Below the pieces are notes generated by a model, which saw only the letters and a list, made by a program, of their open reading frames with translations, was not told where the DNA came from and searched no databases. A stretch of 32,961 bases of DNA from Flavobacteriales bacterium (GTDB taxonomy: Bacteria; Bacteroidota; Bacteroidia; NS11-12g; UBA955), in NCBI GenBank assembly GCA_947463125.1, contig CANHQZ010000024.1, positions 1 through 32,961 of the forward strand, read 5' to 3'. Positions 1 through 29,921 of the stretch are shown piece by piece (position 1 is the stretch's first letter; each line of letters starts with the position of its first letter). The position numbers were made by a program, and so were the translations under genes.

Positions 1-975
1 ACGCGGCACCCCCCCGGAGTAGCTGGAATAATTCAGGTCATTTTCATTGGTTGTGTAGGAAGTATACATCATGCCACCGCTTAAGTTCACATCCTGCTTT
101 TCGCCAAACTGGTTTCTTTCTTCCCAGTTCATGCCCACATTGCTGGTATTGCCACGGAGTGCATAGGCACTGAATTTTCGTTTTCCCTTGAAATTGCTGT
201 ACAACGCCCGCTGTTCATACAGACTTAAATCACTGGATCCCGCCATGGACAAATTGCCGAAATAGCCTTTTTTAGCATCCTCCTTCAACCGTATATCAAG
301 GGTTTTTACCTTTTCTGCAGACTGGTCTCCGGTGCGTTTGGCCTCCTCAGATTGTGCATCGTAAACCGTTACTTCCTTCACCATTTTGGCATCCAGGTTG
401 CGGGTGGCCAGGGTTGGGTCTTCTCCAAAAAATTCTTCACCATCCACCAGCACGCGTTCAACTTTTTTGCCTTGGGCGGTAATTTCCCCGTCGCGGTTAA
501 CCTGCAAACCGGGCAGCTTCTTTAGCAAATCTTCTACGGTCGCGTTGGGTTTGGTTTTAAAGCTGTCCGCCAGATAAATCAGGGTATCGCCCTTCAACCT
601 CATTTTGCCCTTTTGCGCCTTGATGATAACGGCTTCCAGCAATTGCGACAGGGGTATCATATCAATGCTGCCAATATCCACCGGGGTTTCCGACAATTGA
701 TAGCTTTCAATGAAATCGGCATATTTTGGGTACGTGATTAGCAGATTGTATTTGCCGGCTTTTGGAGGTTTCAGACTAAAATAACCATCCTTGCCGGAGC
801 GGGTAAAACATGCCAGCGTGGAATCGGAGGCTCTGAGCAGCAATACGCTTGCGCCGGCTACAGGGGTGTTGTTGGCAGAGTCATAGGTTCTTCCTGTTAC
901 AGAAGTCTGAGTAAATGCCGGACTTAGTAGCAGAAGCAGAAGCCAAAAAACGCAGATTTTTTTAAATAAACACAC
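1..975 (-). CDS. TonB-receptor-like outer membrane beta-barrel protein, 5' part only
   Basis: My translation of the minus strand gives an open frame of 325 codons that runs off the left edge, so the C-terminal barrel is missing. The N-terminus is a hydrophobic signal (run of Leu, then SPAFTQ). A carboxypeptidase-regulatory-like beta-sandwich follows (SVTGRTYDSANNTPVAGASV, later SGKDGYFSL), then a plug-like segment (ATVEDLLKKLPGLQVNRDG, VLVDGEEFFGEDP), then the first barrel strands. This order is typical of Bacteroidota outer membrane barrel proteins related to SusC/TonB receptors. The role would be uptake or outer-membrane assembly; the substrate cannot be told. No ATG precedes the signal peptide. 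The best start is GTG at 975, placed just before LFKKICVFWLLLLLL; an in-frame TAA lies further upstream, and TTG or CTG starts between them are possible. The gene is alone on its side, with 232 bp to the next gene. Confidence 0.85.
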   Translation of the reverse strand, partial: MCLFKKICVFWLLLLLLSPAFTQTSVTGRTYDSANNTPVAGASVLLLRASDSTLACFTRSGKDGYFSLKPPKAGKYNLLITYPKYADFIESYQLSETPVDIGSIDMIPLSQLLEAVIIKAQKGKMRLKGDTLIYLADSFKTKPNATVEDLLKKLPGLQVNRDGEITAQGKKVERVLVDGEEFFGEDPTLATRNLDAKMVKEVTVYDAQSEEAKRTGDQSAEKVKTLDIRLKEDAKKGYFGNLSMAGSSDLSLYEQRALYSNFKGKRKFSAYALRGNTSNVGMNWEERNQFGEKQDVNLSGGMMYTSYTTNENDLNYSSYSGGVPR

Positions 976-1207
976 GGAATGCAGGATGTATAAATGAAGC
1001 CGCAAGATACGGAAATTAAAAAGTTGTTAATTCTAAACGATAAAATAATCAATACACATAAACCGACCTAAGGGCCAGTAATCCTTTTTTCACTGAACAA
1101 ATTATAATGGCATAACAATGAGTCAGATCAGGCTTTTTAAAATTGGAAGTTGATTTATATCATATGCAAACGATTCCTTATTTAAAATGTAACTATATAT
1201 TTTTATA
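976..1207. other. AT-rich intergenic region between two minus-strand genes
   Basis: These 232 bp hold no credible ORF. On the minus strand TATCTTGC at 1002-1009 resembles the Bacteroidota -7 box TAnnTTTG with two mismatches and could serve the outer membrane barrel gene. No clear hairpin terminator for the upstream FISUMP gene was seen. Confidence 0.4.
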
Positions 1208-4200
1208 TCACTTTATATAGGTTTTATTACCATTGCTATTGATATAGTATTTACCACCTCGATTTCCTGTTTGCACACCTTTACTTTTTCCTCCACCACC
1301 ACAGATATTATAGAAGCATAGCTGACACTCTACACAATTCAAAATGTAAAAGGTTTCGTAATAATTATTAGAGACTACTTCTCCTTTAATTGTTAGCTCA
1401 TCTTCAAAGGGAGGCGTCTTCGTCTTATTGTTATCAAGTTTGAAAGCATACTGCAGATCTTTACAATTAATGCACCAATCACTTACAGTGCAGGCGTCAT
1501 GATACATTTGGTATTTCTTGCAACCTGTAAATTTGGATCGGTATAAATAACCTATAGGATTAGCAGGTTGTAATCCAATCGCAGCATTTACTAGTTTTAA
1601 CGGAGCAGCAATGTCAGGTTCTGCAGTAAATTGAGCAGCTGGTAACTCCAGATCTCTGTAGTTGAACAATATAGGACTATTATAATTAAACAGATCATAA
1701 TCAGAACCTGATTTTTCAAAAGAACTGAACCCGATTGTGCTTTGTATCAAGGAAGAAATCAAATAATCATTATAGGTTCTGCTGTTGGCATATACAAGAT
1801 ATTTTGAGATAGTATCTGATATATAACCATAACGATAATATGCTTTCTTTATTACAAGTTTATTTTTAGCATTTGCAAGTTGAAACGATTTAATAAATAA
1901 TTCAGGTGTTTTACTTAAATAGTAAATTTTGGCCATCATATTTTCATGGAATTTGGGCTGATGTTTGAGCATAATTGTTGGCCAATTTTCTTCAGGTGTA
2001 TTAAAGTATTTGGGAAGACATAAAATCAAATAGTTTTTGAAGAGGTCATTGGCTTCAATAAACCTGCCAATTAAAAGAAGTGAATCTATAGTCGGTTTGT
2101 ATATCTCATGTATAACTTGATTGATTTTAATGAAATTTATACTTAAACTGGAACTTAAATTTACTGTTTCGCTTTTTACTTCAGTGTAATAGCAGTTGTT
2201 TTTCTCCTCGGGCCATACATTTTGTTTTGTGGCATTCAGGTTGTATATTTTATTTTTTCCAACAAAATATTTGCCGGGAGGACAATTTATAGAAAGAGTA
2301 AATTTTTTTGTAGCCTGATTTGAGGTCAGTTTATCAAATTGCAATTGATTGAAAGAACGAATAAAGGAAGTGTCCAAATTATATCTCAATAAGTCAGTGC
2401 TATTGTTTGTTACTAACTGGTTTATATTCAACTCAGGTATGCTCAATTGATAATCAAAACCGGTGGGCAATACGCTTAAATCAATCATTATATCAAATTC
2501 CCTGAAATCACTTGGAAGTTTTTTGTCTAATGTGGTGATTTTATTTTTTTTCCAGTCAATATTAGGAATATCCGCAAGAAATAAACCACTTTGTATGCTG
2601 TAGTCGATGAGGGTTCTTAACTTTTTATTTTTATAATACTCTGACAATGTTCCGAATTTTATATAGGTATTTAAATAGCCATTTCCCAAAGAGAGAAAAT
2701 CAGCATAAACACTTGTATCCATAGCATAAATAAAAACTTTGTTTAGACCTGAAACTGTAGTAATATTTTGTGCATAAATCAGGGAATCAATAACTTTTAG
2801 TTTATGTGAAAGCAAGGATTTTGAAATTGGAATCTGGTTCAATTTTTCAAGACTGTCAGCGGGATCAGTTTTATAATCCTTGAAACATAAAATCGAATAG
2901 CCTTCACCTTGTTTTGCATTTTCAAAATCTGACTGTACGGCATTACCGCCAATATCAGAGGATACCTTTAAAATAACAGGACTGGTTAATTTGCTGTACA
3001 GGTTATAACTATAATTACTGGTCCACCATGCTCCTGACCACCTAACATAATCTGGTCTTTCTGTATAAGGAGTATTGTAAAACTTACCGTCTGTTGAACA
3101 GTATGATCCCCCCAGTTGAATTATACCATCTGATTTGTACATGGTAATTGTTTTAGGGTAAGCATCACATATTTCCTTGCCAATAATCAAATTACCATTT
3201 GTTTTTAGTGTTTGATCCGGTATTTCTTCTACGCTACCTGCAACCTTGAGAAGTTCAAATTTATTGGGTATATGCCAACCTTCCGGAGCAATTTGTTTGC
3301 TGCTGGCTACAGCCCAATAATTATAAAGTTTTCCGGTATTTTTGGCATTGCGACTATCAAATTTATAGTAGCAATAAGCAGGCAATTTCATGCTATTAAA
3401 ATGAATCCATTCTTCAGCGGATTTCGCTTCTGGAATAATTGTGCCGTCACGAAAAACAGAGGTATTGAGATTTTTACTTTGATAGATAATAATGCCTTTT
3501 TTTCTCTCCGCTTTCTCTTCGATCGGCATTGCAGGTAAGATGTTTCCTAACACATTATTACTTGAATTATCGGCAGACGCTTCTGTGTAATGACTTGATG
3601 TGTTTTTTGAAGTATCCATAATACTCTCATTTTTCTCTTCAGAAGTATTTTTGAAACATAAAATGGAATAACCATTACCAACATTATCAGAAATAAATTC
3701 AGCATCTACCGAATTTGTTTGAATCATTGCGCTAATCTTAACAGCAAGCAATCCTTTATTTTTAAATTCGGTATTAATCCACCAGGCTCCATACCACAAA
3801 ACATATTCAGGGTTTTTTGCATAGGGAGTACCGTAAAACTTACCGTTTTTATCACATGCACTTGCAGCTAAAGGCATGACACCCCCATTCAATTTTATCT
3901 GTATCGGGTTAGGCAAATAGTCTCGTTCATGTTTTCTTCTATTTATATCGAAAGCCTCACTCTCTGGAATATCACCCACACCGAATGCAATCTGAATCTC
4001 ATAAATATTCGGAATATGCCAACCTTCCGGAATAACTTTATCAGCATTGATAGCGGCCCAATAATTATATAACTTTCCAAGTTTATTTGCATTTTTAGAA
4101 TCATAATTGTAATGACAATAACAGGGAGTTTTATTTTCATTAAACAACTTCCATTCTTCAGCTGATTTTGCTTCCGCTATAGGACTACCGTCTTTGTAGG

Positions 4201-4444
4201 TACTTGTATTAAGGTTCTCAGAAGTAAAGGTTACAACACCCTTGGTTGTCGTTGTATACAATGTTTCTTCACGCTTCTCTTTGAGACTTATTTTATCAGC
4301 AACTTCATCTAACGCTTTATTTTTTATTACACTGCCATTAATAATTTGAGAATACAAATCTATATCGAAGCTTTTAAACAAAAATATTAATACTATAATT
4401 ATATTTTTTAATCGATATATTTTAGATAAATATTTTGAGTTCAT
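1208..4444 (-). CDS. Secreted protein with two FISUMP domains and a PBCV-basic-adaptor-like C-terminal tail
   Basis: A 1078-residue protein if begun at ATG 4444; an upstream ATG at 4504 is in frame, but the promoter box TACTTTTG (4462-4469) lies inside that extension, which favours 4444. The N-terminus is a signal peptide (MNSKYLSK, hydrophobic IIIVLIFLF, ending near YSQ). Two similar units of about 200 residues follow, each with SAEEW, GKLYNYWA, PEGWHIPN, GAWW and GYSILCFK. These are the hallmarks of the FISUMP (Fibrobacter succinogenes major paralogous) domain, so the unit has been duplicated. About 500 unrecognised residues come next, then a Cys-rich stretch (CxxC-like pairs CINC and CVEC, GGGG linker). 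The last 20 residues, with RGGKYYI and GNKTYIK, match the pattern of the PBCV-specific basic adaptor domain. Function is unknown; cell-surface or secreted is inferred. Codon use is far more AT-rich than in the neighbours, which suggests transfer or rapid evolution. Confidence 0.8.
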   Translation of the reverse strand: MNSKYLSKIYRLKNIIIVLIFLFKSFDIDLYSQIINGSVIKNKALDEVADKISLKEKREETLYTTTTKGVVTFTSENLNTSTYKDGSPIAEAKSAEEWKLFNENKTPCYCHYNYDSKNANKLGKLYNYWAAINADKVIPEGWHIPNIYEIQIAFGVGDIPESEAFDINRRKHERDYLPNPIQIKLNGGVMPLAASACDKNGKFYGTPYAKNPEYVLWYGAWWINTEFKNKGLLAVKISAMIQTNSVDAEFISDNVGNGYSILCFKNTSEEKNESIMDTSKNTSSHYTEASADNSSNNVLGNILPAMPIEEKAERKKGIIIYQSKNLNTSVFRDGTIIPEAKSAEEWIHFNSMKLPAYCYYKFDSRNAKNTGKLYNYWAVASSKQIAPEGWHIPNKFELLKVAGSVEEIPDQTLKTNGNLIIGKEICDAYPKTITMYKSDGIIQLGGSYCSTDGKFYNTPYTERPDYVRWSGAWWTSNYSYNLYSKLTSPVILKVSSDIGGNAVQSDFENAKQGEGYSILCFKDYKTDPADSLEKLNQIPISKSLLSHKLKVIDSLIYAQNITTVSGLNKVFIYAMDTSVYADFLSLGNGYLNTYIKFGTLSEYYKNKKLRTLIDYSIQSGLFLADIPNIDWKKNKITTLDKKLPSDFREFDIMIDLSVLPTGFDYQLSIPELNINQLVTNNSTDLLRYNLDTSFIRSFNQLQFDKLTSNQATKKFTLSINCPPGKYFVGKNKIYNLNATKQNVWPEEKNNCYYTEVKSETVNLSSSLSINFIKINQVIHEIYKPTIDSLLLIGRFIEANDLFKNYLILCLPKYFNTPEENWPTIMLKHQPKFHENMMAKIYYLSKTPELFIKSFQLANAKNKLVIKKAYYRYGYISDTISKYLVYANSRTYNDYLISSLIQSTIGFSSFEKSGSDYDLFNYNSPILFNYRDLELPAAQFTAEPDIAAPLKLVNAAIGLQPANPIGYLYRSKFTGCKKYQMYHDACTVSDWCINCKDLQYAFKLDNNKTKTPPFEDELTIKGEVVSNNYYETFYILNCVECQLCFYNICGGGGKSKGVQTGNRGGKYYINSNGNKTYIK

Positions 4445-4461
4445 GTTTTTTATTAATTTTC

Positions 4462-4469
4462 CAAAAGTA
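4462..4469 (-). promoter_or_regulatory. -7 promoter box TACTTTTG for the FISUMP gene
   Basis: TACTTTTG on the minus strand fits the Bacteroidota consensus TAnnTTTG exactly and ends 17 nt before ATG 4444. No TTG was found at the usual 19-21 nt upstream. The box lies inside the longer frame that begins at 4504, so it argues for the shorter protein. Confidence 0.5.
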
Positions 4470-4631
4470 GTCATTATATTTGAGAATATCTTTATATTAA
4501 ACAAGATAATTTATTTGGGTTCAGTTTTAAATTTTAACAAATAACAGCACTATGAAATTCACACTAGTAGTGTGTGCAAGCTGTAAAATTGGGATTTAGA
4601 AAAAATCCGAAAGTAATCGAAAGTTACTTTG

Positions 4632-4703
4632 TGGTCCCGCCAGGAATCGAACCTGGATCTAATGCTCCGGAGGCATTCGTAGTATCCATTCTACTACGGG
4701 ACC
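4632..4703 (-). tRNA. tRNA-Arg, anticodon CCG
   Basis: The minus strand folds as a 72-nt cloverleaf. The acceptor stem is GGTCCCG/CGGGACC with discriminator A, the D stem is GTAG/CTAC, and the anticodon stem AATGC/GCATT holds loop CTCCGGA with U33 and anticodon CCG. The T arm contains GGTTCGATTCC. The 3' CCA is not encoded; the next bases are CAA. A near-match promoter box GATATTTG lies at 4723-4730, 19 nt upstream. The AT-rich FISUMP gene begins on the 3' side. Confidence 0.95.
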
Positions 4704-4813
4704 GGCCTGTGTGAACAGACTGCAAATATCAGTATTTACCCCCGAATTCGCCCCACAAAAATCTGCATTCCGTCAGATTGCACCAATTATACACCCATCC
4801 TCGCTTTACTTCG

Positions 4814-4821
4814 TAACTTTG
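4814..4821 (+). promoter_or_regulatory. -7 promoter box TAACTTTG for the S41 peptidase operon
   Basis: TAACTTTG is a perfect TAnnTTTG and ends 6 nt before ATG 4828, so transcription should begin almost at the start codon. This also excludes the longer frame starting at 4711, which would place the promoter inside the gene. No -33 TTG at the usual spacing was seen. Confidence 0.65.
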
Positions 4822-4827
4822 CCCTGT

Positions 4828-6462
4828 ATGGAAATCCGTATTCGCATACCCAAAACCGCCCTGCTGGCCCTAGCTGCCCTGTTCCTCAGCACCGGCTACA
4901 AAACCTACGATAACCTCTTTGAATACAGCAAAAACCTGGAAATATTCGCTACCGCCTACAAACAGGTGGGAACAAGCTTTGTAGATGACGTAAACCCCGG
5001 AACCTTAATGCGCAAAGGCCTCGATGCCATGCTTGCCTCGCTGGATCCCTACACCAACTACTACAGCGAAGCACAGACCGAAGAAGCCATGATTGAACGC
5101 CAGGGAGAATACGGCGGGGTGGGCTGCCGCATTTTCATCCGCAACCGCTACCCCGTGGTGAGTGAGGTTTTTCGCGGCTATGCCTTCGCCAATGCCGATA
5201 TACGCTGTGGCGACATCATCAAATTCGTTTCCGGGCAGGAAATGGCCGGCAAATCCACCGGCGATGTCGGTGCCATGCTGCGCGGTGCCCCCAATACATC
5301 CCTTACCCTCATTGTGGAACGAAACGGAAAACCACTGGAGAAAAAAATTACCCGCGTTTCCGTACGCACCAAAAACGTGCCCTGGTCGGGCATGATCAAC
5401 GAACAAACCGGCTACATCAAACTGGATGAATTCGGCCAGAACTGCGCCCAGGAAATAGAAACCGCCCTCACAACGCTGCAGAAAAACCCGGGCATGAACA
5501 AGCTGATACTGGATCTGCGCGGCAATGGCGGCGGACTGCTGGCCGAAGCCGTAGATATTGTAGGATTGTTTGTGGGCGAAAATAAACTGGTGGTAAACAT
5601 GAAAGGCCGCACCACCGAAAGTAACCGCAAATGGATGACCCGCAAGCCTGCCGTGGCCCCCGATTTACCCCTGGTGGTGCTGGTAGATGCCCAAAGTGCA
5701 AGCGCCAGTGAAGTGGTGAGCGGCAGCCTGCAGGACATGGACCGCGCGGTTATCATCGGGCAAAACAGCTTTGGCAAAGGGCTGGTGCAAAATTTCTATC
5801 CGCTGCCCTACCGCACGCAGATGAAAATCACCACTGCCAAATACTACACCCCAAGCGGGCGCTGCATACAGCTGCTGGACTACAGCAAACGCAACCCCGA
5901 CGGCAGCGCGGGCAGTATCCCCGACAGCCTGCGCAAAGCGTTCAAAACCGCTGCAGGACGCACGGTGTATGACGGTGGTGGCATTCGCCCCGATGTAATG
6001 GTAGATCCTTTCAGCGGCGAGCCCCTGATTAAATATCTGTTGGAAGAACGCTACGTTTTTGACTTCGCCAACGAGTTTCGCAACAATAATGAATCCCTGC
6101 CTGCCGAAGAACGGTTTATCACCCCTGCACAATTTGAGGTTTTTGGCAAACAATGCGCTGCCAAACTGAAAACACAGCTGCGCAAAAAGATGGAAGAAGC
6201 CCTGCAGAACAGCGTGAAAGATGAAGAGCTGGTGAAAATGATTATGAACGGCGTTAGCGATGCCAAACTGGAAAAAGCCGTGCTCGACCACATCAACCAC
6301 TGCGGCGAAACCCTGATGTACCGTATGGAATCGGAAATCATTGCCCGCTACCCCGATGCGGAACGCGAGTACAAACACATGTTCGCCGGCGACCCTGATC
6401 TGGCCACAGCCCTCAAAACACTAAACAACCCCGATGCGTATAACCGCATTCTCCGAAAATAA
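4828..6462 (+). CDS. S41 family C-terminal processing peptidase with PDZ domain
   Basis: A 544-residue serine protease of the CtpA/Prc (tail-specific protease) family, acting in the periplasm on the C-termini of envelope proteins. The N-terminus MEIRIRIPKTALLALAALFL is a signal peptide or membrane anchor. SLDPYTNYYSE marks the N-terminal helical part. A PDZ-like domain follows at about residues 95-180 (GGVGCRIF, GDIIKFVSGQ). The S41 core carries the dyad: Ser292 within SASASE and Lys317 within FGKG, 25 residues apart as in known CTPs. A C-terminal extension of about 170 residues follows. The start was chosen at ATG 4828, just after a TAACTTTG box. The stop codon is directly followed by the ATG of the TauE/SafE gene, so this is the first gene of a five-gene operon. 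Confidence 0.92.
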   Translation: MEIRIRIPKTALLALAALFLSTGYKTYDNLFEYSKNLEIFATAYKQVGTSFVDDVNPGTLMRKGLDAMLASLDPYTNYYSEAQTEEAMIERQGEYGGVGCRIFIRNRYPVVSEVFRGYAFANADIRCGDIIKFVSGQEMAGKSTGDVGAMLRGAPNTSLTLIVERNGKPLEKKITRVSVRTKNVPWSGMINEQTGYIKLDEFGQNCAQEIETALTTLQKNPGMNKLILDLRGNGGGLLAEAVDIVGLFVGENKLVVNMKGRTTESNRKWMTRKPAVAPDLPLVVLVDAQSASASEVVSGSLQDMDRAVIIGQNSFGKGLVQNFYPLPYRTQMKITTAKYYTPSGRCIQLLDYSKRNPDGSAGSIPDSLRKAFKTAAGRTVYDGGGIRPDVMVDPFSGEPLIKYLLEERYVFDFANEFRNNNESLPAEERFITPAQFEVFGKQCAAKLKTQLRKKMEEALQNSVKDEELVKMIMNGVSDAKLEKAVLDHINHCGETLMYRMESEIIARYPDAEREYKHMFAGDPDLATALKTLNNPDAYNRILRK

Positions 6463-7281
6463 ATGAGCGCATTGCAATGGCTTCTGCTGCCCCTGGTGGG
6501 CGCCGCAGGCGGCTTTCTGGCCGGCATGCTGGGTGTGGGCGGTGGCATCATCTTCATCCCGCTGCTCAGCTGGCTGTTTGCCTCTCTGGGACTGCCCCCG
6601 GAAGAAATTGTGCGCTTTACCCTGGCAAACAGCATTTTGCTGGTGGTGGTGAGCGGACTGACAGGCACCCGGAAACAATACCGGCTGGGTGAATGGCAAT
6701 GGCGCAAGGTTCTGAGTATCGGCGTGCCCGGTGCCACAGTATCGTATGCGGTCACTTATTCCATTCAGCACGGCGACTGGTACAGTAAATCCCGGTTTAA
6801 TTTAGTCTTTCTGTTGTTTTTAGCCATCTCTGTAGCCAACATGATTTTTGGCAAAAAAAAGGACCCGGAAGCAACCATACCGCAAGAAAAACCCTTATCA
6901 GCCGTACTGGTGGGCATCTTTGCCGGTGCGGTGGTTGCCCTGAGCGGGCTGGGCGGGGGTGTGATTATGGTTCCCCTTTTTCGTATGGTACTTAAAATGC
7001 CCATGCGGCAGGCCACAGCGCTCTCCCTGAGCATTATCCCTGCGCTGGGTTTCGCTCCGCTGACAGGCTACATGCTGGCGCCCGGTGCAACCCAATTGCC
7101 ATTTTTACACACGGGTTATGTTGCATGGCCCTACGCCCTGCCCATGGCTGCGGGCGTAGTCGTGTTTGCCACCGTGGGAATGAAAGCCGCTAAACACATC
7201 TCCGAAACCACTTTACGGATTATCTTTGCAATCCTTTCCTCCATCGTAATTGTTAAAACCTTGTATGACATTTTTTCTTAA
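6463..7281 (+). CDS. TauE/SafE family sulfite/anion exporter
   Basis: A 272-residue polytopic inner membrane protein of the TauE/SafE (UPF0721) family. It shows the two inverted family repeats, each opening with a glycine-rich helix: GGFLAGMLGVGGGIIFIPLL near the N-terminus and ALSGLGGGVIMVPLF at about residue 155. Several more hydrophobic helices follow each repeat. Known members move sulfite, sulfoacetate or other small organic anions, but substrates vary widely, so none is assigned. The ATG begins immediately after the TAA of the S41 peptidase, and the end overlaps the start of the M28 peptidase by 17 nt, so translation is probably coupled. Confidence 0.9.
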   Translation: MSALQWLLLPLVGAAGGFLAGMLGVGGGIIFIPLLSWLFASLGLPPEEIVRFTLANSILLVVVSGLTGTRKQYRLGEWQWRKVLSIGVPGATVSYAVTYSIQHGDWYSKSRFNLVFLLFLAISVANMIFGKKKDPEATIPQEKPLSAVLVGIFAGAVVALSGLGGGVIMVPLFRMVLKMPMRQATALSLSIIPALGFAPLTGYMLAPGATQLPFLHTGYVAWPYALPMAAGVVVFATVGMKAAKHISETTLRIIFAILSSIVIVKTLYDIFS

Positions 7282-8983
7282 TAACCTTAAGGCCCTTCTC
7301 TTCTGCACGGCTGCGGTATTTGTAGGATTTTTACAGGCCCAGAAGCCCGCAAATGATAAACGCATCTACCGTCTTTCCAACGATATTTCCTACCTCGCTT
7401 CCGACGCGCTGGAAGGCAGACAGACAGGATCACCCGGCGAAAAATTATCGGCTGAGTTTATTGTTGCACAAATGAAGGAAGCCGGCCTCAAACCCCTTAA
7501 AAAAGACTGGTTTCAGACATTTGACATCATCCAGCTTCGCATAGCCAAAACACAATGTGAACTGGCCTTTGTAGTGGGCCCGGGAGCCGTAAAGTCATTG
7601 ATCCTCAATGAACACTATTACCCCATCAGCCAGACAGGCAATGAAGACAGTGCGGAAGCTGAGATTCACGATTGCGGATACGGCCTGGTTTTGCGCGACA
7701 GCATCAAAAGAGACGATTTTGAAAGCGATGGCGGTGTAAAAGGCAAGATTGCCCTTATCCGCCTGGGTTTTCCAGGTGATCAGGACAACAGCAAAAGCCT
7801 CTATGCCGGCGTAGCCGATATCAACACCAAAATCAGAGAGGCACTGGCACACGGAGCCGTTGGCATCCTTTTCCTGCCGGGAAGCAGCGCCGCGGAGGCC
7901 CCAAAAGCCCAGCTGGACCGCAATGCTAAAACATTCAACATTCCCATTTTTTACCTCACCGACCTGTTTTCAAAAGAATTACCCCGCGGTATTAGCATGA
8001 GAATGAAAAGCCACATTGCAGTATTTAAAACCACAGCCCACAACGTAGTGGGTGTTTCCGGAAAATTTAAAAAGCGCAAAAACAGCATTATTGTCTGTGC
8101 CCACCACGACCACCTGGGTTTTAACGAGTACGGCGGAAGCCGCTATACCGGCCCGCAGGCCATACACAACGGCGCCGATGACAATGCCAGCGGTGTGGCA
8201 GCCATGCTGGAGCTGTCGCGCAGCCTGAAAGGCTTGAAATACAAGAAGAACAACCTGGTTTTTGTGGCATTCAGCGGCGAAGAGCTGGGTCTGCTGGGCT
8301 CAAAGCACTTTTTGCAGCAGTGCCCTGTACCCAAACAAAAAATAAGTTATGTCATCAATATTGACATGCTGGGCCGACTGGATTCGCAAAGCAAAACCCT
8401 GATGGTAAACGGTGTGGGAACCAGCCCGGTCTGGAAAACCACCCTTTCAATCATTAAAACCGACACAACCCGTATCCGCATTGCTACCACAGAAAGCGGC
8501 CTGGGCCCAAGTGATCACGCATCGTTTTACCTGGAAGGCATACCCGTACTGCACTTTTTTAGCGGACAGCATGAAGATTACCACAAACCCTCCGATGATG
8601 CCGATAAAATCAACTACGCAGGCATGGCTGCTGCAGTTGAGGTAATCGAAAAGGTGATTTCGGCCAATACAGGCAAGAAAAAACCTGCGTTTACCAAAAC
8701 AAAAGATGTCACCCCCGGACGCAGTAATTTCAAAGTGACCCTGGGCGTGATGCCCGATTATACTTTCACCGGCAACGGCATGAAGCTGGACGGGGTTACT
8801 GAAGGCCGCCCTGCCCAGAAAGCAGGACTGCAGCGCGGTGATATCATTACCCGTGTGGGCGAAATCAACATTGGCAGCGTTTCGGACTACATGAACGCAC
8901 TTTCCAAATTCGAAAAAGGCCGTAAAGCAGAAGTAACCTACCTTCGTGACAGCAAAACCCTCACCACTACCGTTGAGTTCTAA
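7265..8983 (+). CDS. M28 family metallopeptidase with PA-like insert and C-terminal PDZ domain
   Basis: A 572-residue secreted zinc aminopeptidase-like protein. The N-terminus MTFFLNNLKALLFCTAAVFV ending in LQAQ is a signal peptide. A PA-like insert (about 130-250) precedes the catalytic core. The dinuclear zinc site is complete: His280 (AHHDHLG), bridging Asp306 (GADDNASG), the pair Glu339 (base) and Glu340 (SGEELG), Asp367 (NIDMLGR) and His440 (DYHKPSD). The last ~85 residues form a PDZ domain (GVTEGRPAQKAGLQRGDIIT). ATG 7265 was preferred to the in-frame TTG at 7250 because the signal peptide begins there. It probably degrades peptides in the periplasm or outside the cell. The pairing with a CTP-type protease in one operon is suggestive, but a shared substrate is not shown. 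Confidence 0.9.
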   Translation: MTFFLNNLKALLFCTAAVFVGFLQAQKPANDKRIYRLSNDISYLASDALEGRQTGSPGEKLSAEFIVAQMKEAGLKPLKKDWFQTFDIIQLRIAKTQCELAFVVGPGAVKSLILNEHYYPISQTGNEDSAEAEIHDCGYGLVLRDSIKRDDFESDGGVKGKIALIRLGFPGDQDNSKSLYAGVADINTKIREALAHGAVGILFLPGSSAAEAPKAQLDRNAKTFNIPIFYLTDLFSKELPRGISMRMKSHIAVFKTTAHNVVGVSGKFKKRKNSIIVCAHHDHLGFNEYGGSRYTGPQAIHNGADDNASGVAAMLELSRSLKGLKYKKNNLVFVAFSGEELGLLGSKHFLQQCPVPKQKISYVINIDMLGRLDSQSKTLMVNGVGTSPVWKTTLSIIKTDTTRIRIATTESGLGPSDHASFYLEGIPVLHFFSGQHEDYHKPSDDADKINYAGMAAAVEVIEKVISANTGKKKPAFTKTKDVTPGRSNFKVTLGVMPDYTFTGNGMKLDGVTEGRPAQKAGLQRGDIITRVGEINIGSVSDYMNALSKFEKGRKAEVTYLRDSKTLTTTVEF

Positions 8984-8985
8984 AA

Positions 8986-9942
8986 ATGAAAATCATTGAC
9001 CACATCCGCGGCGCTTCCGGAAAAACCCTGTTTTCCTTTGAAATACTGCCTCCGCTGAAAGGCGCAGACATTGCTACATTGTGGAAAGGCATAGACCCGC
9101 TCATTGAATTCAAGCCCTCGTTTATCGATGTTACCTACCACCGCGAGGATTTTATCCTGCGCAACCGGCCCGACGGAACTTTCGATAAGATAAGCACCCG
9201 CAAACGCCCCGGCACCGTTGCCATCTGCGCAGCACTGCAGAACAAATACAAGATTGATGCTGTTCCGCACCTCATCTGCGGCGGATTTTCGCGTGAAGAC
9301 ACCGAAAACGCACTCATTGACCTGGACTTTCTGGGAATTGACAATATCCTTGCCCTGCGTGGCGATGCCCGAAAAGGCGACACCCACTTCATTCCCGAGC
9401 CGGACGGACATAAAAATGCCCTGGATCTGATACACCAGATTCGCAACATGAACGCGGGTATTTACCTGGATGAGGAACTCACCAATGCCCGCGATACGCA
9501 TTTCTGTATCGGCGCTGCGGCCTACCCTGAAAAACACATTGACGCCCCCAGCATGGAGGTTGATATGAAATACCTGAAACGCAAGGTAGAAGCCGGCGCG
9601 GATTTTCTGGTTACCCAAATGTTTTTCGACAACCGCCACTACTTCGACTTTGTGGCCAAATGCAGGGAGAACGGCATTCAGGTGCCCATCATTCCCGGTA
9701 TCAAACCCCTCAGTACCTCCAAGCAAATGGAAGTGTTGCCCCGCATATTCCACATCGAAATGCCCGAAGACCTGCGCAAAGCCACCGCAGGCATAACCGA
9801 TGATGCTGCCATCAAGCAGATTGGTACGGAATGGGCTACCATGCAGTGTAAGGAACTCATGCAAAAGGGCGCGCCTGTACTGCATTTCTACACCATGGGT
9901 AAAAGCGAGCAAACCTCAGCCATTTGTAGGTCCATTTTCTAA
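8986..9942 (+). CDS. metF: 5,10-methylenetetrahydrofolate reductase
   Basis: A 318-residue FAD-dependent TIM-barrel enzyme reducing methylene-THF to methyl-THF, the methyl donor for methionine synthesis. Family landmarks are clear: FSFEILPP with the catalytic Glu19, DVTYHRED, HLICGGFSREDTENAL, ILALRGD, the IGAAAYPEKH segment, FLVTQMFFD and PIIPGIKPLS. The length is a little above the ~300 residues of the E. coli enzyme. The gene starts 2 nt after the M28 stop and its TAA overlaps the ATG of rsgA (TAATG), so it lies within the operon. No riboswitch-like leader exists, because there is no room upstream. Confidence 0.96.
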   Translation: MKIIDHIRGASGKTLFSFEILPPLKGADIATLWKGIDPLIEFKPSFIDVTYHREDFILRNRPDGTFDKISTRKRPGTVAICAALQNKYKIDAVPHLICGGFSREDTENALIDLDFLGIDNILALRGDARKGDTHFIPEPDGHKNALDLIHQIRNMNAGIYLDEELTNARDTHFCIGAAAYPEKHIDAPSMEVDMKYLKRKVEAGADFLVTQMFFDNRHYFDFVAKCRENGIQVPIIPGIKPLSTSKQMEVLPRIFHIEMPEDLRKATAGITDDAAIKQIGTEWATMQCKELMQKGAPVLHFYTMGKSEQTSAICRSIF

Positions 9943-10865
9943 TGAAGGGAATCGTTGTAAAAAGCACAGGCAGCTGGTACAACGTACTCGACGAAGAAGG
10001 AAAAGCATGGAAAGCCCGCGTGCGGGGAAAAATCCGCCTGCATGAGGCTGATACCAGCAACCCTATTGCTGTTGGCGACCGTGTGCTGCTGCAACCCGAC
10101 CCGCAATACCCGGACACCTGCACCATCACCGATATTGAACCCCGCAGCAACTGGGTTATCCGCAAAAGCAACAAGCTCAGCAGCCGAAGGCAAATTATTG
10201 CTGCCAACATCGATGTGGCCGTGATGGTAGCCGGACTGGCAGCTCCCCGCACCTCATTTGGCTTTATAGACCGCTTTTTAGTTTGCTGTGAGGCATTTCA
10301 CATTCCCGCCATCATCTTCCTCAACAAAACCGATTTGCTACCCTCAGGAGGGCTGGAATTGCTAAATGAAGTGGGTGAAATCTACCGCAATGCCGGGTAT
10401 AAAGTCATCACGGGATCGGCGGCCACCGGACAGGGCGTGGATGAACTTAAAAATGAAATCGCCGGAAAAACGGTGTTGTTTGCCGGACACAGCGGTGTGG
10501 GCAAAAGCACCCTGCTGAACTGCATGTTTCCGGAAGCAGAAGCCCGTGTGGGCATCATTTCCGCGGCGCATGAAAAGGGCAAGCACACCACTACATTCGC
10601 AGAGATGCATATGTTTGCAGGAAATACAGGCATTATCGACACCCCCGGTATCCGAGATTTCGGGCTGGTTGATATTCTGCCCAAAGAAAGCGGGCAGTAC
10701 TTTCCCGAGTTCAGGCCCTTTTTACAACAATGTAAATTCAACGACTGCAGCCATACCAACGAGCCGGAGTGTGCCATCAAAGCAGCCGTAGAAGATGGAC
10801 AAATACCGATGCAGCGTTTTTATTCCTACCTGAGCATTTTGCAGGGTGAGGATGTGTTTAGTTAA
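9942..10865 (+). CDS. rsgA: Ribosome small-subunit-dependent GTPase A
   Basis: A 307-residue circularly permuted GTPase that acts in late 30S subunit maturation in the cytoplasm. An N-terminal OB-fold spans about residues 1-70. The permuted G motifs come in the expected order: G4 NKTD (128-131), G1 GHSGVGKS (182-189), G3 DTPG (233-236). The zinc knuckle is complete with Cys264, Cys269, His271 and Cys277, followed by the C-terminal helices. The length is typical. The ATG overlaps the metF stop by one base, and the gene closes the operon; no strong terminator hairpin was seen after it. Confidence 0.97.
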   Translation: MKGIVVKSTGSWYNVLDEEGKAWKARVRGKIRLHEADTSNPIAVGDRVLLQPDPQYPDTCTITDIEPRSNWVIRKSNKLSSRRQIIAANIDVAVMVAGLAAPRTSFGFIDRFLVCCEAFHIPAIIFLNKTDLLPSGGLELLNEVGEIYRNAGYKVITGSAATGQGVDELKNEIAGKTVLFAGHSGVGKSTLLNCMFPEAEARVGIISAAHEKGKHTTTFAEMHMFAGNTGIIDTPGIRDFGLVDILPKESGQYFPEFRPFLQQCKFNDCSHTNEPECAIKAAVEDGQIPMQRFYSYLSILQGEDVFS

Positions 10866-10925
10866 TTTTTATACATTATTCTATGATTTTTTCAATTTTA
10901 TGTAAATTTTGTGTATTCTTGAACC

Positions 10926-11984
10926 ATGAAAAACATTTTATTCAGCTTTCTTTGGATAATTGCAAATTCAAGTCAAGCGCAAAAAGTAGATTTAGATCCT
11001 TTTAAATTTAATTTGGAATATCGTGATTTACCTCATGATATCTTTGACTCTAGTCTTAAAAGTTTCACCCCAATCATTCAGTTAACGCCGTTCACAAAGG
11101 AACATATTAGCGAAGAAGTGGTAGCTTCGAAACTTTTAATCCATGGCTATGAACGCAGCAATAGCAATGCTGATATTCAGTTTGTATTTTATATGAGCGA
11201 CATAACCATTTTGGAATTTGATATACTAGAAACTGTAGCTGAGTCTAAAAACAGAGATGGCACTATTAACAAAAAATATTCTTATTTTGGAGTTCTGAAA
11301 TATAGATTATCTGCAATTGCATATCTCAAAAATAAAGCTGGAAAAGATTTAGTTAGACGCACTGATCTAATCTTAAACAACTCTCTTCAGCCCTTAATTT
11401 GGAAAAGTAAAGAGTTTAATACTAGCAGCGCAGCGAGCCAATATATGAAGGATAATATTGAAATTATTAACGGCAATCTTTTAAGAGAAAACCTAAATAC
11501 AGCAATAGTCGATGCAAACCAATGGGCTAATTACTGCGTTGGATTCCCACTCAAAAAGGATAACGTGCAGCTATGGCTATTGGATAGCAAAAATCACCCC
11601 GAATATGAAAACATGCACAAACGCTGGAACTCACTTAAAATTAGTCTGCAAGAGATTACAGCTGTAAGCATTAATGAAGATATCAAATTAGTAATAATAG
11701 AGGCTATTAAATATTTTGACAGTATTAAAATAACATATAATGGTCAGGAAAAATCTGACAAAAAAATGAGGTATGCAGCTTTTTATAACAATGCACAACT
11801 TTACCTCATATTAGATAAGCCAGAAGAAGCTAAAAAAGAAGCTGAGGGTTTAATAGTTAATGATTATGATGCCAAGGATGGTGAACGAATAAGAAAACAG
11901 GCAGAGGGGCTGTCTGAACTTTTTAAAAAGCATGACATATATACTCGACATTTCGAAGCTATGCAGCGACCATATAGAAGATAA
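10926..11984 (+). CDS. AT-rich secreted protein of unknown function with TPR-like C-terminus
   Basis: A 352-residue protein that I do not recognise. The N-terminus (MKNILFSFLWIIANSSQAQ) is a signal peptide. The middle contains beta-like stretches and WANYCVGFPL. The C-terminal ~120 residues are helical and TPR-like (MRYAAFYNNAQLYLILDKPEEAKKEA), ending in a basic RRPYRR-like tail. Base composition is clearly more AT-rich than in rsgA before it and the carboxylase after it. A near-match -7 box TATTCTTG (10914-10921) ends 4 nt before the ATG. The stop codon lies 5 nt from the 3' end of the SRP RNA gene on the opposite strand, so the two converge. A recent insertion next to the RNA gene is possible, but no flanking duplication was found. 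Confidence 0.75.
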   Translation: MKNILFSFLWIIANSSQAQKVDLDPFKFNLEYRDLPHDIFDSSLKSFTPIIQLTPFTKEHISEEVVASKLLIHGYERSNSNADIQFVFYMSDITILEFDILETVAESKNRDGTINKKYSYFGVLKYRLSAIAYLKNKAGKDLVRRTDLILNNSLQPLIWKSKEFNTSSAASQYMKDNIEIINGNLLRENLNTAIVDANQWANYCVGFPLKKDNVQLWLLDSKNHPEYENMHKRWNSLKISLQEITAVSINEDIKLVIIEAIKYFDSIKITYNGQEKSDKKMRYAAFYNNAQLYLILDKPEEAKKEAEGLIVNDYDAKDGERIRKQAEGLSELFKKHDIYTRHFEAMQRPYRR

Positions 11985-11989
11985 AAAAA

Positions 11990-12070
11990 GGCGGTATCGC
12001 GCCGCTACAACCCGCTGTCCTTGCTGCCTTCCGGCCCTGGGGAATTGAACGGGGAGCTGGCCGTACCGCC
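11990..12070 (-). ncRNA. ffs: Signal recognition particle RNA, small bacterial (4.5S) type
   Basis: On the minus strand an 81-nt RNA closes with the pair GGCGGTA/TACCGCC. The apical part carries the conserved SRP domain IV: CCAGGGCCGGAAGGCAGCA, with a GGAA tetraloop on a CC/GG stem and the asymmetric/symmetric internal loops that bind Ffh. A run of seven T residues directly follows the 3' end and acts as a terminator tail. A perfect promoter box TATCTTTG (12075-12082) sits 4 nt upstream of the 5' end. The exact 5' end may be a few bases earlier (CACC). Confidence 0.93.
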
Positions 12071-12074
12071 GGTG

Positions 12075-12082
12075 CAAAGATA
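12075..12082 (-). promoter_or_regulatory. -7 promoter box TATCTTTG of the SRP RNA
   Basis: TATCTTTG on the minus strand ends 4 nt before the SRP RNA 5' end. It gives an internal yardstick for box-to-transcription-start distance in this genome, because the mature RNA end is structurally defined. No TTG at -33 was recognised. Confidence 0.65.
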
Positions 12083-12092
12083 AGGGTTTGGC

Positions 12093-12134
12093 GTTTATTA
12101 GTCTAATGGTTTATTTGTCTCATGGTTTATTGGG
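12093..12134 (+). repeat. Tandem 16-bp repeat, two full copies and a partial
   Basis: GTTTATTAGTCTAATG (12093-12108) is followed without spacer by GTTTATTTGTCTCATG (12109-12124) and GTTTATTGGG (12125-12134). The period is exactly 16. The same unit recurs after the threonine dehydrogenase gene near 27640. The array lies upstream of the SRP RNA promoter. Confidence 0.8.
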
Positions 12135-12231
12135 AAACATGCACATGCCGGCCCGGGTTTAAACCGTAGGCTGTGAGCCGGGGAAGAACATGTTCAAACT
12201 ATACACTGTTAACTATACGCTCGTATTCCCG

Positions 12232-12239
12232 TAATTTTG
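12232..12239 (+). promoter_or_regulatory. -7 promoter box TAATTTTG for the acyl-CoA carboxylase gene
   Basis: TAATTTTG fits TAnnTTTG and ends 7 nt before ATG 12247. A TTA at 12209-12211 sits 20 nt upstream, where the -33 TTG is expected. Confidence 0.55.
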
Positions 12240-12246
12240 AACCTTC

Positions 12247-13893
12247 ATGGCAAAAACCGATCTGGAATTCAACAAAAACGAAGACCTGAACAAACAGGCC
12301 TGGGATGCAGTCAAACAAAAACTGTCCGTCATCCACCAGGGGGGCGGGGCCAAAGCGGCCGCCAAACAAAAGGAAAAAGGCAAAATGCTGTGCCGCGAAC
12401 GCATCGATTACCTGCGCGACAATAACTCCGAATGGATCGAAATCGGGGAGTTTGCAGGCTTTGACATGTACCCCGAACACGGGGGCTGCCCCGCCGGCGG
12501 CGTGGTGGCAGGCATCGGTTTTGTTTCGGGCAGACAGTGCATGATTGTGGCCAACGACGCCACCGTAAAGGCCGGCGCCTGGTTTCCCATTACCGGCAAG
12601 AAAAACCTGCGTGCCCAGGAAATCGCCATGGAAAACCACCTGCCCATTATCTACCTCGTAGACAGCGCCGGGGTTTACCTGCCCATGCAGGATGAAATCT
12701 TCCCGGACAAAGAGCACTTCGGTCGCATATTCCGCAACAACGCCATTATGAGCAGCATGGGCATCACCCAGATTGCCGCCGTGATGGGGAGCTGCGTGGC
12801 CGGTGGCGCTTACCTGCCCATCATGAGCGATGAAGCCCTCATCGTAGACAAAACCGGATCCATCTTTTTGGCCGGCAGCTACCTGGTAAAAGCCGCCATC
12901 GGCGAGGATGTTGACAACGAAACCCTGGGCGGCGGCACCACCCAAAGCGAAATCAGCGGGGTGATTGACGATAAATTCCCCGACGATAAAAGCTGTCTCG
13001 ACCGCATACGCTACATCATGGACAAACTGGGTAAACCCCACGATGCCGGTTTTAGCCGCGTGACACCCGCAGCGCCCAAAGAAAATCCCAAAGACATCTG
13101 GGGTATCCTTCCCTCAGAACGCTCCAAACCTTACAAAACGCTTGAAATCATTCACCGGCTGGTGGACAACAGCGAGTTTGAGCAATACAAGGAAAACTAC
13201 GGCAAAACCATAATTTGCGGCTATGCCCGCATCGATGGATGGGCTGTGGGCATTGTTGCCAACAACCGTGAACTGGCTAAGGCCAAAAAGCCCAGTGGCA
13301 GCACCGAAATGCAGTTTGGCGGTGTCATCTACAGCGACAGCGCCGACAAAGCCGCCCGCTTCATCATGAATTGCAACCAGAAAAACATTCCGCTGGTGTT
13401 TCTGCAGGATGTGACCGGCTTTATGGTGGGCAGCCGCAGCGAACAGGGCGGTATCATTAAGGACGGCGCCAAAATGGTCAACGCCATGAGCAACAGCACC
13501 GTGCCCAAATTCACCGTGATTATGGGCAACAGTTACGGTGCAGGCAACTATGCCATGTGCGGTAAAGCCTACGATCCCCGCCTGATTGTGGCATGGCCCT
13601 CGGCCAAAATAGCCGTGATGGGTGGAGAACAGGCCGCCAAGGTGCTGCTGCAGATTGAAGAAATGAGCCTCAAGGCCAAAGGAGAGGAAATTACCCCCGA
13701 AGCCAAAAAAGCCCTGCTGGATAAAATCACGCAACGCTACGAAAACCAGACCACACCGTACTACGCAGCATCACGCCTGTGGGTAGATGCCATCATCGAA
13801 CCGGTTCAAACACGCACCTGGATCAGCATGGGCATTCAGGCCGCTTCGCAGGCACCTGTAAAACCCTTCAATGTGGGGGTGCTGCAAACCTGA
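12247..13893 (+). CDS. Acyl-CoA carboxylase, carboxyltransferase (beta) subunit
   Basis: A 548-residue carboxyltransferase of the propionyl-/methylcrotonyl-CoA carboxylase beta family. It transfers CO2 from carboxybiotin to an acyl-CoA in the cytoplasm. Both crotonase-fold halves are present: an N half (KMLCRERIDYL, IYLVDSAGVYLPMQ, GSCVAGGAYLPIMSDE) and a C half (IPLVFLQDVTGFMVG, KFTVIMGNSYGAGNYAMCG, WPSAKIAVMGGEQAA). The glycine-rich oxyanion segments are intact. The AGGAYLPIMSDE segment resembles methylcrotonyl-CoA carboxylase more than propionyl-CoA carboxylase, which would point to leucine breakdown; this is a likelihood call by eye. No biotin-carboxylase alpha subunit is adjacent, so the partner must lie elsewhere. 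Expression is probably from the TAATTTTG box; the mRNA would have almost no leader. Confidence 0.92.
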   Translation: MAKTDLEFNKNEDLNKQAWDAVKQKLSVIHQGGGAKAAAKQKEKGKMLCRERIDYLRDNNSEWIEIGEFAGFDMYPEHGGCPAGGVVAGIGFVSGRQCMIVANDATVKAGAWFPITGKKNLRAQEIAMENHLPIIYLVDSAGVYLPMQDEIFPDKEHFGRIFRNNAIMSSMGITQIAAVMGSCVAGGAYLPIMSDEALIVDKTGSIFLAGSYLVKAAIGEDVDNETLGGGTTQSEISGVIDDKFPDDKSCLDRIRYIMDKLGKPHDAGFSRVTPAAPKENPKDIWGILPSERSKPYKTLEIIHRLVDNSEFEQYKENYGKTIICGYARIDGWAVGIVANNRELAKAKKPSGSTEMQFGGVIYSDSADKAARFIMNCNQKNIPLVFLQDVTGFMVGSRSEQGGIIKDGAKMVNAMSNSTVPKFTVIMGNSYGAGNYAMCGKAYDPRLIVAWPSAKIAVMGGEQAAKVLLQIEEMSLKAKGEEITPEAKKALLDKITQRYENQTTPYYAASRLWVDAIIEPVQTRTWISMGIQAASQAPVKPFNVGVLQT

Positions 13894-13902
13894 TAAAAAC
13901 AT

Positions 13903-13933
13903 TTGTTGTTTGAACAAACTTTTATTAACTTTG
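13903..13933 (+). promoter_or_regulatory. Promoter TTG-N20-TAACTTTG for the pirin gene
   Basis: TTG at 13903-13905 and TAACTTTG at 13926-13933 are separated by 20 nt, matching the Bacteroidota -33/-7 pattern. The box ends 14 nt before ATG 13948. The longer frame starting at TTG 13903 would overlap the promoter and is therefore unlikely. Confidence 0.7.
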
Positions 13934-13947
13934 TTAAACACGAAACC

Positions 13948-15081: not shown

Positions 15082-15091
15082 CGTTCGCTTA

Positions 15092-16468: not shown

Positions 16469-16505
16469 GTTTGGCGAAAATAACACAAAACCTGCTGAAT
16501 GGGGT

Positions 16506-16513
16506 TACTTTTG
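16506..16513 (+). promoter_or_regulatory. -7 promoter box TACTTTTG for the ABC-F gene
   Basis: TACTTTTG matches TAnnTTTG exactly and ends 20 nt before the GTG start at 16534. No TTG at the canonical distance was found. Confidence 0.5.
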
Positions 16514-16533
16514 CAGGGTTGTAAGCAAGCATT

Positions 16534-18420: not shown

Positions 18421-18486
18421 AGCGTGGCAAAATGCCGTTTTGCTCAATTTTCCGCTGAACAGTGTACCCATGTGAATAACATCCCT

Positions 18487-18518
18487 TTGCGCCTGCTGCT
18501 TTTCCTTGCCTAACTTTG
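18487..18518 (+). promoter_or_regulatory. Promoter TTG-N21-TAACTTTG for fabD
   Basis: TTG at 18487-18489 and TAACTTTG at 18511-18518 are 21 nt apart. The box ends only 4 nt before ATG 18523, the same distance as in the SRP RNA gene between box and RNA end. A leaderless mRNA is therefore expected. Confidence 0.7.
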
Positions 18519-18522
18519 CCCC

Positions 18523-19404: not shown

Positions 19405-19407
19405 GAT

Positions 19408-22398: not shown

Positions 22399-22404
22399 GC
22401 AATA

Positions 22405-22412
22405 CAAAGATA
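22405..22412 (-). promoter_or_regulatory. -7 promoter box TATCTTTG for the T9SS substrate gene
   Basis: Perfect TAnnTTTG on the minus strand, ending 6 nt before GTG 22398. The upstream TTG at 22405-22407 is the last three bases of the box, so it is unlikely to be the start codon. Confidence 0.6.
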
Positions 22413-22565
22413 AAGATTAGACGCCGCGCCCACATCAGGTGTTGTCTTTGCACGGTAAAAAAATGGGATGATGAAATTGACTCGGGCTTGTCAATCTCGC
22501 CCTGCCGCATGCCATGCGCAAAGACAAACCAATGGGAAATGGGAAAAGTTGTCAAATCGCCAATC

Positions 22566-22649: not shown

Positions 22650-22738
22650 ATAAACGGGTATGATAATATCCCGGGTCAAGGCCATGCTTCTATAGGCTCA
22701 GCATGATACATGGGCCAAGCACGAAAAAACGAATGGTA

Positions 22739-23590: not shown

Positions 23591-23591
23591 C

Positions 23592-23771: not shown

Positions 23772-23836
23772 GCCTTATTTGTGACCTTAAATACCACAAA
23801 AGGCAATCCTACCCCCAAAAGAAATCAAAAATATTT

Positions 23837-26613: not shown

Positions 26614-26619
26614 AGCAGA

Positions 26620-28799: not shown

Positions 28800-29921
28800 A
28801 TGAAAAGAGAGACTTTTATAAAATTCAAAAAAAGTATACTATGCTTGGTCATAATTCTAAGTGTTAACAGTATATTTTCCCAAACGCTAACGGTTAAAAG
28901 AGATTACTATCCAATTCAATATGGATCACGTGTACATTTCGAGTATCAAGTGCTTCCAGATGGAACATATCACGGCTATTTCAAAGAGTTTAGATCCGAC
29001 GGAACACTGGCATCAAACGTGACAAAGAAAAATGGAAAAAGTGTTAAAGGATATTATTATTTTAAGGATGGTAAGACCATTGAAAGAGAATTTACTTATA
29101 ATCAGTACGAGACACCACATGGTATTCAAAAACTAAACTCATACACAGCTAATAAGCTGCTATTTAATCAGCATGTTTCAATGTGGGAGAATGGTGTTAT
29201 AAAATCAGCTAAAACTCTGTATAATCCCCAAACCATTAAATTTATTTTCGAAAATAACACCGTCAAAAGGTATAATTACATTGAGGATAAGCTAGTGCTG
29301 GTTGATAAATATTATGTTGATCCAAATAATAATGCAATAACGGGTTATCTAAGAGAGAGGGATTTGATTATCCATTTTGAGCGTGGAAAATTAAAAAAGA
29401 TGACTTTTGTTTCTGATACGAATAGAAATCTTTTCTTGAGAGTAGCGCCTGATACTTTGGCGCGCATATATTCTATAAATCAAAAAGATTCATCACAAGA
29501 GTATGATTGTTTTTTTGATACTACAAACAATCTTGCTCGCATTGCATATAATGCCACTGGTGGTGTAAATGTCTCTTTCATAGGTTTTGGGTTATCACCA
29601 ATACAGGTTATTCATTATGACAATACTGAAAGACATGAATCAACCGATTTTTGGGGTTATTTTGATAGAAATTTAGACAAACTTGTAACACGAATTTATG
29701 CATTTAAATATTTGAATTATCCTTCTTTAGACAATAAAATTATTAGTTTTTACAGCATTTTTAATTTGACTAATAAATTATATGAATTCAAAAATTATTA
29801 TGATAATGGTGGAAAGCTAAAAAAGAGAATAGTTTATAAAAGGAGAGACTCCTATCATATAGAGGCATTTACATACGATGCAACAGGTAAACTCATTAAT
29901 ACACAGGTGTTAAATAATTAA
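28800..29921 (+). CDS. AT-rich secreted protein with MORN/YwqK-like repeats
   Basis: A 373-residue protein with signal peptide (ILCLVIILSVNSIFSQ). The first ~110 residues hold MORN-variant units such as DGTYHGYFKEFRSDGTLASN and KGYYYFKDGKTIEREF; a last unit is YDATGKLINTQ at the C-terminus, and YYDNGGKLKKRIVYK lies shortly before it. Such repeats occur in Bacteroidota proteins named YwqK-family antitoxin-like, but an antitoxin role is not supported here, and no toxin neighbour is present. The central part is unrecognised. Codon use is strongly AT-rich against the flanking genes, like 1208-4444 and 10926-11984. It ends at a strong hairpin shared with the convergent AAA+ gene. Confidence 0.75.
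   Translation: MKRETFIKFKKSILCLVIILSVNSIFSQTLTVKRDYYPIQYGSRVHFEYQVLPDGTYHGYFKEFRSDGTLASNVTKKNGKSVKGYYYFKDGKTIEREFTYNQYETPHGIQKLNSYTANKLLFNQHVSMWENGVIKSAKTLYNPQTIKFIFENNTVKRYNYIEDKLVLVDKYYVDPNNNAITGYLRERDLIIHFERGKLKKMTFVSDTNRNLFLRVAPDTLARIYSINQKDSSQEYDCFFDTTNNLARIAYNATGGVNVSFIGFGLSPIQVIHYDNTERHESTDFWGYFDRNLDKLVTRIYAFKYLNYPSLDNKIISFYSIFNLTNKLYEFKNYYDNGGKLKKRIVYKRRDSYHIEAFTYDATGKLINTQVLNN

Follow-up and report, generated by a model that had tools for sequence, protein, structure and literature searches.

Two AT-rich genes in a 32,961-nucleotide (nt) stretch of a Flavobacteriales genome (contig CANHQZ010000024.1 of assembly GCA_947463125.1; the whole stretch is called the window here) lie on the 3' sides of two structural RNA genes, tRNA-Arg(CCG) and the signal recognition particle (SRP) RNA, and they were probably gained in two separate acquisitions, to which we assign a probability of about 0.7. 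One would have left the remnant of an integrase element at tRNA-Arg, and the other a lone foreign gene lodged between rsgA and the SRP RNA gene. A tyrosine-integrase element of the kind present in the congener G004 would have entered the 3' end of tRNA-Arg(CCG), as the comparison with that genome suggests, restored the tRNA and left an attachment arm immediately 3' of it. Later losses would have removed the integrase and the displaced tRNA fragment, both absent from the window, so that one AT-rich gene remained; this order of events is a proposal. A complete AT-rich gene, probably from a low-GC member of the Bacteroidota, would have been put into the rsgA/SRP RNA gap, the donor and the process being likewise proposed.

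The window corresponds to contig C24 in a genome of 2.34 Mb and 85 contigs (G000) and was compared with six congeners (G001 to G006) and further genomes of the family. An earlier note on the window had suggested from position and composition that both genes were inserted at the 3' ends of RNA genes. Both observations were confirmed: the tRNA-Arg (4631-4703) and SRP RNA (11986-12077) genes are on the minus strand, each with an AT-rich gene on its 3' side, and the GC content is 0.322 across 1031-4630 (tRNA side) and 0.325 across 10864-11980 (SRP side), compared with 0.519 (4704-10863) and 0.509 (12078-28000) in the backbone. GC at third codon positions (GC3) is 0.28 and 0.29 in the genes of the 1078- and 352-amino-acid (aa) proteins, compared with 0.56-0.68 in six neighbouring genes. 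Integration at an RNA 3' end held for the tRNA, whose arm is shared with an integrase-bearing element, but for the SRP RNA it is a matter of position only. Different genes were found in the relatives both behind tRNA-Arg (five of the six congeners have the tRNA) and in the rsgA/SRP RNA gap (all six), and conservation of both genes at the same sites was not observed among them.

The tRNA-Arg locus

The features on the tRNA side are the following:

4631..4703, minus strand: tRNA-Arg(CCG), the putative integration target; a displaced 21-nt 3' fragment occurs in G004 (contig C4)
4592..4630, minus strand: putative 39-nt attachment arm directly 3' of the tRNA, with matches in G004 and G076
1020..4630, strand not applicable: AT-rich island from tRNA-Arg to the outer-membrane-type gene (left edge approximate)
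1208..4444 (or to 4504 with a TTG start), minus strand: gene of the 1078-aa protein, with Fib_succ_major in two stretches and a C-terminal half that is unique
1..975, minus strand: 5' part of an outer-membrane-type gene that bounds the island (named by eye, with no family call)
4864..6462, plus strand: S41 peptidase gene on the 5' side of the tRNA

The arm was identical at 37 of 39 positions to G004 at two places and at 34 of 39 to G076, a member of another genus. The best matches at nine other tRNA-Arg loci (G001, G002, G005, G006, G009, G011, G017, G021, and G023) were 20-23 of 39, and 2000 random stretches gave 23 of 39 at most. In a BLAST search of the arm region against 70 genomes of the family, similarity reached beyond the tRNA only in G004 (two places, 94% over 67 bp) and G076 (90% over 61 bp); 11 further genomes matched solely inside the tRNA end. 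One of the G004 copies, next to the whole tRNA, precedes an integrase open reading frame (ORF) with the domains Phage_integrase (3.8e-25), Phage_int_SAM_5, and Arm-DNA-bind_5, and the second copy (on C4) stands behind the displaced tRNA fragment and before an integrase start that is broken by a stop codon. In G076, the arm is followed by an 89-aa Arm-DNA-bind_5 fragment and then by AT-rich secreted genes, one of which carries FG-GAP repeats and a sorting domain. These contexts indicate that the arm travels with the integrase and with the tRNA end. Judging from the sequence, the island in the window is a remnant (decayed) or a non-autonomous form of the integrase element.

The 3' side of this tRNA is a variable locus in the genus, where an integrase, other AT-rich secreted genes, or none may be found. 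tRNA-Arg was detected in five of the six congeners and the contents behind it differed in each: besides the integrase of G004, G001 has an outer-membrane-type gene that starts 46 bp behind the tRNA, G002 an AT-rich gene of secreted type, G005 other small genes, and G006 approximately 12.3 kb of AT-rich genes. The gene bounding the island in the window (1-975) is 64% identical to the gene behind the G001 tRNA and 89% identical to the gene ending the G006 island, so that the 46 bp of G001, the 3.7 kb of the window, and the 12.3 kb of G006 represent three states of one interval. Homology with G006 upstream of the island in the window stops near 1020. Five genes of the G006 island have a GC content of 0.34-0.40, and three carry CHU_C or Por_Secre_tail (type IX-type sorting domains); a gene of this island shares 66% identity over 214 aa with the one that follows tRNA-Arg in G002. 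The distribution of the island is thus sporadic, with the 46 bp of G001 as an empty site, where synteny extends on one side only. As a separate observation, a broken extra tRNA-Arg with approximately 90 bp inserted lies about 200 bp 5' of the intact one in G005 (L067:10250-10400) and G006 (L158:60-200).

Several points weigh against two separate acquisitions as described here. No tRNA-Arg match was obtained in G003, and the empty site of G001 belongs to a distant congener in which the 5' neighbour of the tRNA differs from that of the window. The bounding gene has only 32-35% matches in G002, G003, G004, and G005, and the two arm copies of G004 sit on separate contigs. The arm contains a weak hairpin (AAAGTAA...TTACTTT, recognized by eye) followed by a T-run and may double as the terminator of the tRNA, so it could partly be terminator. 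No integrase related to that of G004 at E<=1e-10 was found in the genome of the window, and no displaced tRNA fragment was found in the window. For the SRP side, no donor was found closer than 42% identity, and the tree position of the gene is on a long branch. The earlier note had likewise reported no duplicated attachment (att) sequence, in agreement with the longest words shared with the tRNA (9 nt) and the SRP RNA (7 nt), both within the values of shuffled sequences. The tRNA-side island is a single ORF without an integrase domain, the genome has no second arm copy by BLAST, and the arm pattern had no match in viral contigs. With neither integrase nor displaced fragment present, it is the arm alone that points to integration in this genome.

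The earlier note had called the AT-rich genes secreted orphans. "Secreted" has its basis in signal-like N termini seen by eye. "Orphan" applies to the last 580 residues of the 1078-aa protein, which had no match in the other 69 of the 70 family genomes, but not to its two Fib_succ_major stretches or to the 352-aa protein, which has 54 relatives in GTDB. Fib_succ_major also occurs elsewhere in the genome of the window; at 1e-3 it was detected in 15 of 39 genomes, including that of the window. The 1078-aa protein was not found in plasmids or viral contigs; one phage record matched it, in the Fib_succ_major part only (26%), and a search of PHROGs gave no match for three proteins. Its C-terminal tail (window 1211-1270) resembled PBCV_basic_adap (PBCV-specific basic adaptor) at E 0.12, which is below the cut-off.

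The tRNA half is a known kind of event. The tRNA-targeted genomic islands of the Islander type (PMC4383910) resemble the window in the tRNA target, the arm behind a restored tRNA, the patchy distribution, and the atypical GC content, and they resemble G004 in having tRNA, displaced 3' fragment, and integrase. Unlike them, the copy in the window has no integrase, no displaced fragment, and a single cargo gene. The 10K genomic island of Riemerella anatipestifer at Arg-tRNA, whose tyrosine integrase was shown to integrate and excise (PMC6764341), is similar in that a Bacteroidota tyrosine integrase lies beside Arg-tRNA (the sequences were not compared) and differs in its 53-bp repeats and 12 ORFs.

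The rsgA/SRP RNA gap

The features on the SRP side are the following:

9942..10865, plus strand: rsgA
10864..11980, strand not applicable: insert of approximately 1.1 kb in the rsgA/SRP RNA gap, where the congener alignment breaks
10926..11984, plus strand: gene of the 352-aa protein, a complete member of a Bacteroidota family, with its TAA stop at the edge of the conserved ATAAAAAAAGG next to the SRP RNA
11986..12077, minus strand: SRP RNA gene (RF04183, 65.3 bits)

The rsgA and SRP RNA genes are convergent in all six congeners, and the content of the gap differs among them. From rsgA to the SRP RNA there are 8, 9, and 8 bp in G002, G003, and G004 (rsgA stop codon included), 78 bp in G006, and 77 bp in G017, which belongs to another genus. 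In G001 and G005 the gap is about 600 bp and holds a ParE_toxin/RelB-like pair (L063:8894-9360 and L067:16598-17064, respectively), the two being 76% identical over 562 bp. Alignments of the window to the congeners break at 10863-10867 and restart at 11974-11983, with ATAAAAAAAGG, the T-run at the SRP RNA 3' end, as the conserved edge on which the stop of the 352-aa gene lies. The 3' end of the SRP RNA, which the earlier note had put at 11990 and 5 nt from this stop, is at 11986, 1 nt from the stop at 11984. At the level of sequence comparison, these breakpoints demonstrate an insertion at the rsgA/SRP RNA gap, but there is no evidence that the SRP RNA gene itself was targeted. The insertion breaks neither gene nor the T-run, and the gap therefore accepts foreign DNA.

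No SRP RNA fragment was found in the window, no direct repeats longer than 5 nt at the ends of the insert, and no recombinase or transposase domain in its one ORF. A type I-F3b CRISPR-associated transposon was considered and rejected, since the 1.1-kb insert is one ORF and has no Tn7-like transposition or Cas gene; the resemblance to these transposons, which occur at ffs (PMC11406308), is that the insert adjoins the SRP RNA gene. From a survey of the 3' sides of SRP RNA at 30 loci of relatives nothing was drawn, the RNA strand being unreadable by motif in 18 of the 30. A search of the open-licence literature (SRP RNA, 4.5S RNA, and convergent-gene integration) yielded a review of the ffs transposons and no Bacteroidota SRP RNA islands.

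The 352-aa gene is absent from all six congeners. Homologs at 27-42% identity occurred in seven genomes from other genera of the taxonomic family (hits in three further genomes, at E 0.06-0.17, were weaker and disregarded), and the protein family was present at 54 loci of GTDB, every one with a named phylum belonging to the Bacteroidota. The GC content of the gene minus that of its flanks ranged from -0.065 to +0.033 at all 54 loci, compared with about -0.18 in the window. SRP RNA was near the relatives at 0 of 52 loci (Rfam) and a tRNA at 1 of 54 (ARAGORN; 243 bp from the gene in L223), many of the loci being short. In the tree, the protein of the window sat on a long branch and grouped with the G013 and G017 proteins (support 99/97). 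The family was not found in viral contigs or plasmids, the phage collection not having been searched. The G013 gene comes after OstA_2 and DUF5686 genes (L069), and the cluster around the G017 gene includes an OstA_2 gene (L070). In the confident structure model (predicted local distance difference test score 91.4), the N-terminal part resembles LptE, Cj1090c, and HpaA, and the C-terminal part is of the tetratricopeptide repeat (TPR) type. In a comparison with LptE/CsgG-like lipoproteins carrying TPR, the Z scores were 7.9-8.6 for the N-terminal part (LptE, Cj1090c) and up to 9.9 for the TPR part, which may reflect no more than a common arrangement; the best Foldseek E was 5.7e-5 with a low template modeling score, and a solved-structure search with the profile gave one match only (E 0.25). 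A role in the outer envelope, at which the OstA_2 and DUF5686 neighbours hint, would be a guess.

Thus the SRP half has no att, no integrase, and no RNA-gene neighbour in the relatives (one tRNA aside), and the junction can also be read as a convergent gap. No RNA-directed mechanism is needed for the gene there.

Convergent gaps and genome-wide background

A comparison case is found at the far end of the window:

28800..29921, plus strand: third AT-rich gene, with a GC content of 0.306, in convergent orientation to the AAA ATPase gene at 29974-31704

The spacing between these two genes is 52 nt, and there is no RNA gene in the vicinity. In G002 the 3' end of this ATPase gene is separated by 51 bp from a convergent lipoprotein-like gene (L346:8093-8145), and in G003 an AT-rich gene of 227 aa lies in between (GC 0.34; L345:8678-9361). 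The junction in the window and in G003 indicates that convergent gaps take such genes without RNA; the sample is small and no count was made across gap types. It could be supposed that a dedicated and undescribed process places individual AT-rich genes, without leaving scars, between convergent 3' ends that lie a few bases apart, with the SRP RNA and other terminators as favoured doors. The places to be cited for it are the rsgA/SRP RNA gap (the window, and the toxin-antitoxin pair in G001 and G005) and the AAA ATPase junction (the window and G003). We regard this process, favoured doors included, as very unlikely.

The chance of the coincidence was estimated with a control drawn from the genome. 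The median GC content of 1-kb windows was 0.472, and 3.0% were below 0.38 (855 overlapping windows, 15 stretches). Among 22 RNA genes (21 tRNAs and the SRP RNA, all followed by 800 bp or more of 3' sequence), two had a 3' side below 0.38, exactly the tRNA-Arg(CCG) and SRP RNA of the window; on the 5' side this held for 1 of 21 tRNAs. Seven of the 28 tRNAs were excluded because the 3' side was cut by a contig end, and several of the remaining 21 are clustered and not independent. At a background of 3%, at least two AT-rich 3' sides among 22 have a probability near 0.14 (hand calculation), and AT-rich DNA behind RNA genes is therefore no genome-wide rule; no excess at RNA 3' ends was found among these 22 genes. 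In the seven excluded tRNAs (C53, C79, C67, C48, and C46) the contig end lay within approximately 305 bp on the 3' side, and no tRNA had its 5' side cut in this way, which could be caused by variable islands or rRNA operons.

Alternative explanations

Both islands might have been placed by site-specific integrases at the 3' ends of RNA genes, the SRP RNA included. This would fit the position of the insert against the SRP RNA T-run, the toxin-antitoxin pair in the same gap of two congeners, and the known use of ffs as an attachment site by type I-F3b CRISPR-associated transposons (PMC11406308). However, the window holds no SRP RNA fragment beyond chance, the insert is one ORF without a recombinase, the 352-aa relatives are not associated with SRP RNA or tRNA genes (0 of 52 and 1 of 54 loci), and AT-rich DNA 3' of RNA genes is not in excess, and we consider this explanation quite unlikely. 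The tRNA island could instead be a living non-autonomous element, consisting of the tRNA 3' end, the arm, and one cargo gene, and moved in trans by an integrase of the G004 type. The arm is kept at 37 of 39 positions relative to the intact element, and the island is a single gene in which no integrase remnant was recognized. Such an element would need a distal tRNA fragment, which the window does not have, and there is no second arm copy in the genome; this alternative appears unlikely.

For the 352-aa gene, vertical inheritance might be considered, with relocation to the SRP RNA gap, drift in composition, and loss from the six congeners. The nearest relatives among the genomes compared do belong to the same family (G013 and G017, with support of 99/97), but several losses would be required, the nearest congeners among them, and neither a GC3 of 0.29 amid neighbours at 0.56-0.68 nor the long branch is in concordance with it, so that we find it rather improbable. 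An assembly chimera, in which foreign AT-rich DNA was joined to the backbone, seems extremely unlikely. Although the contig is of the metagenome type and contig C83 of the same genome overlaps positions 1-638 at 95.5% identity (C83 is probably a strain variant), both edges of both islands run into sequence homologous to the congeners, and an independent genome has a match to the arm.

Implications

Under two separate acquisitions, a proposal made from position and composition can be divided into a tRNA half with direct evidence and an SRP half that is more simply read as a tolerant convergent gap. The tRNA half offers a defined attachment arm, common to two genera, which is usable to find integrase-less remnants in this group. 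If it were true that the SRP RNA gap is targeted in Bacteroidota, this would add to the precedent of the CRISPR-associated transposons.

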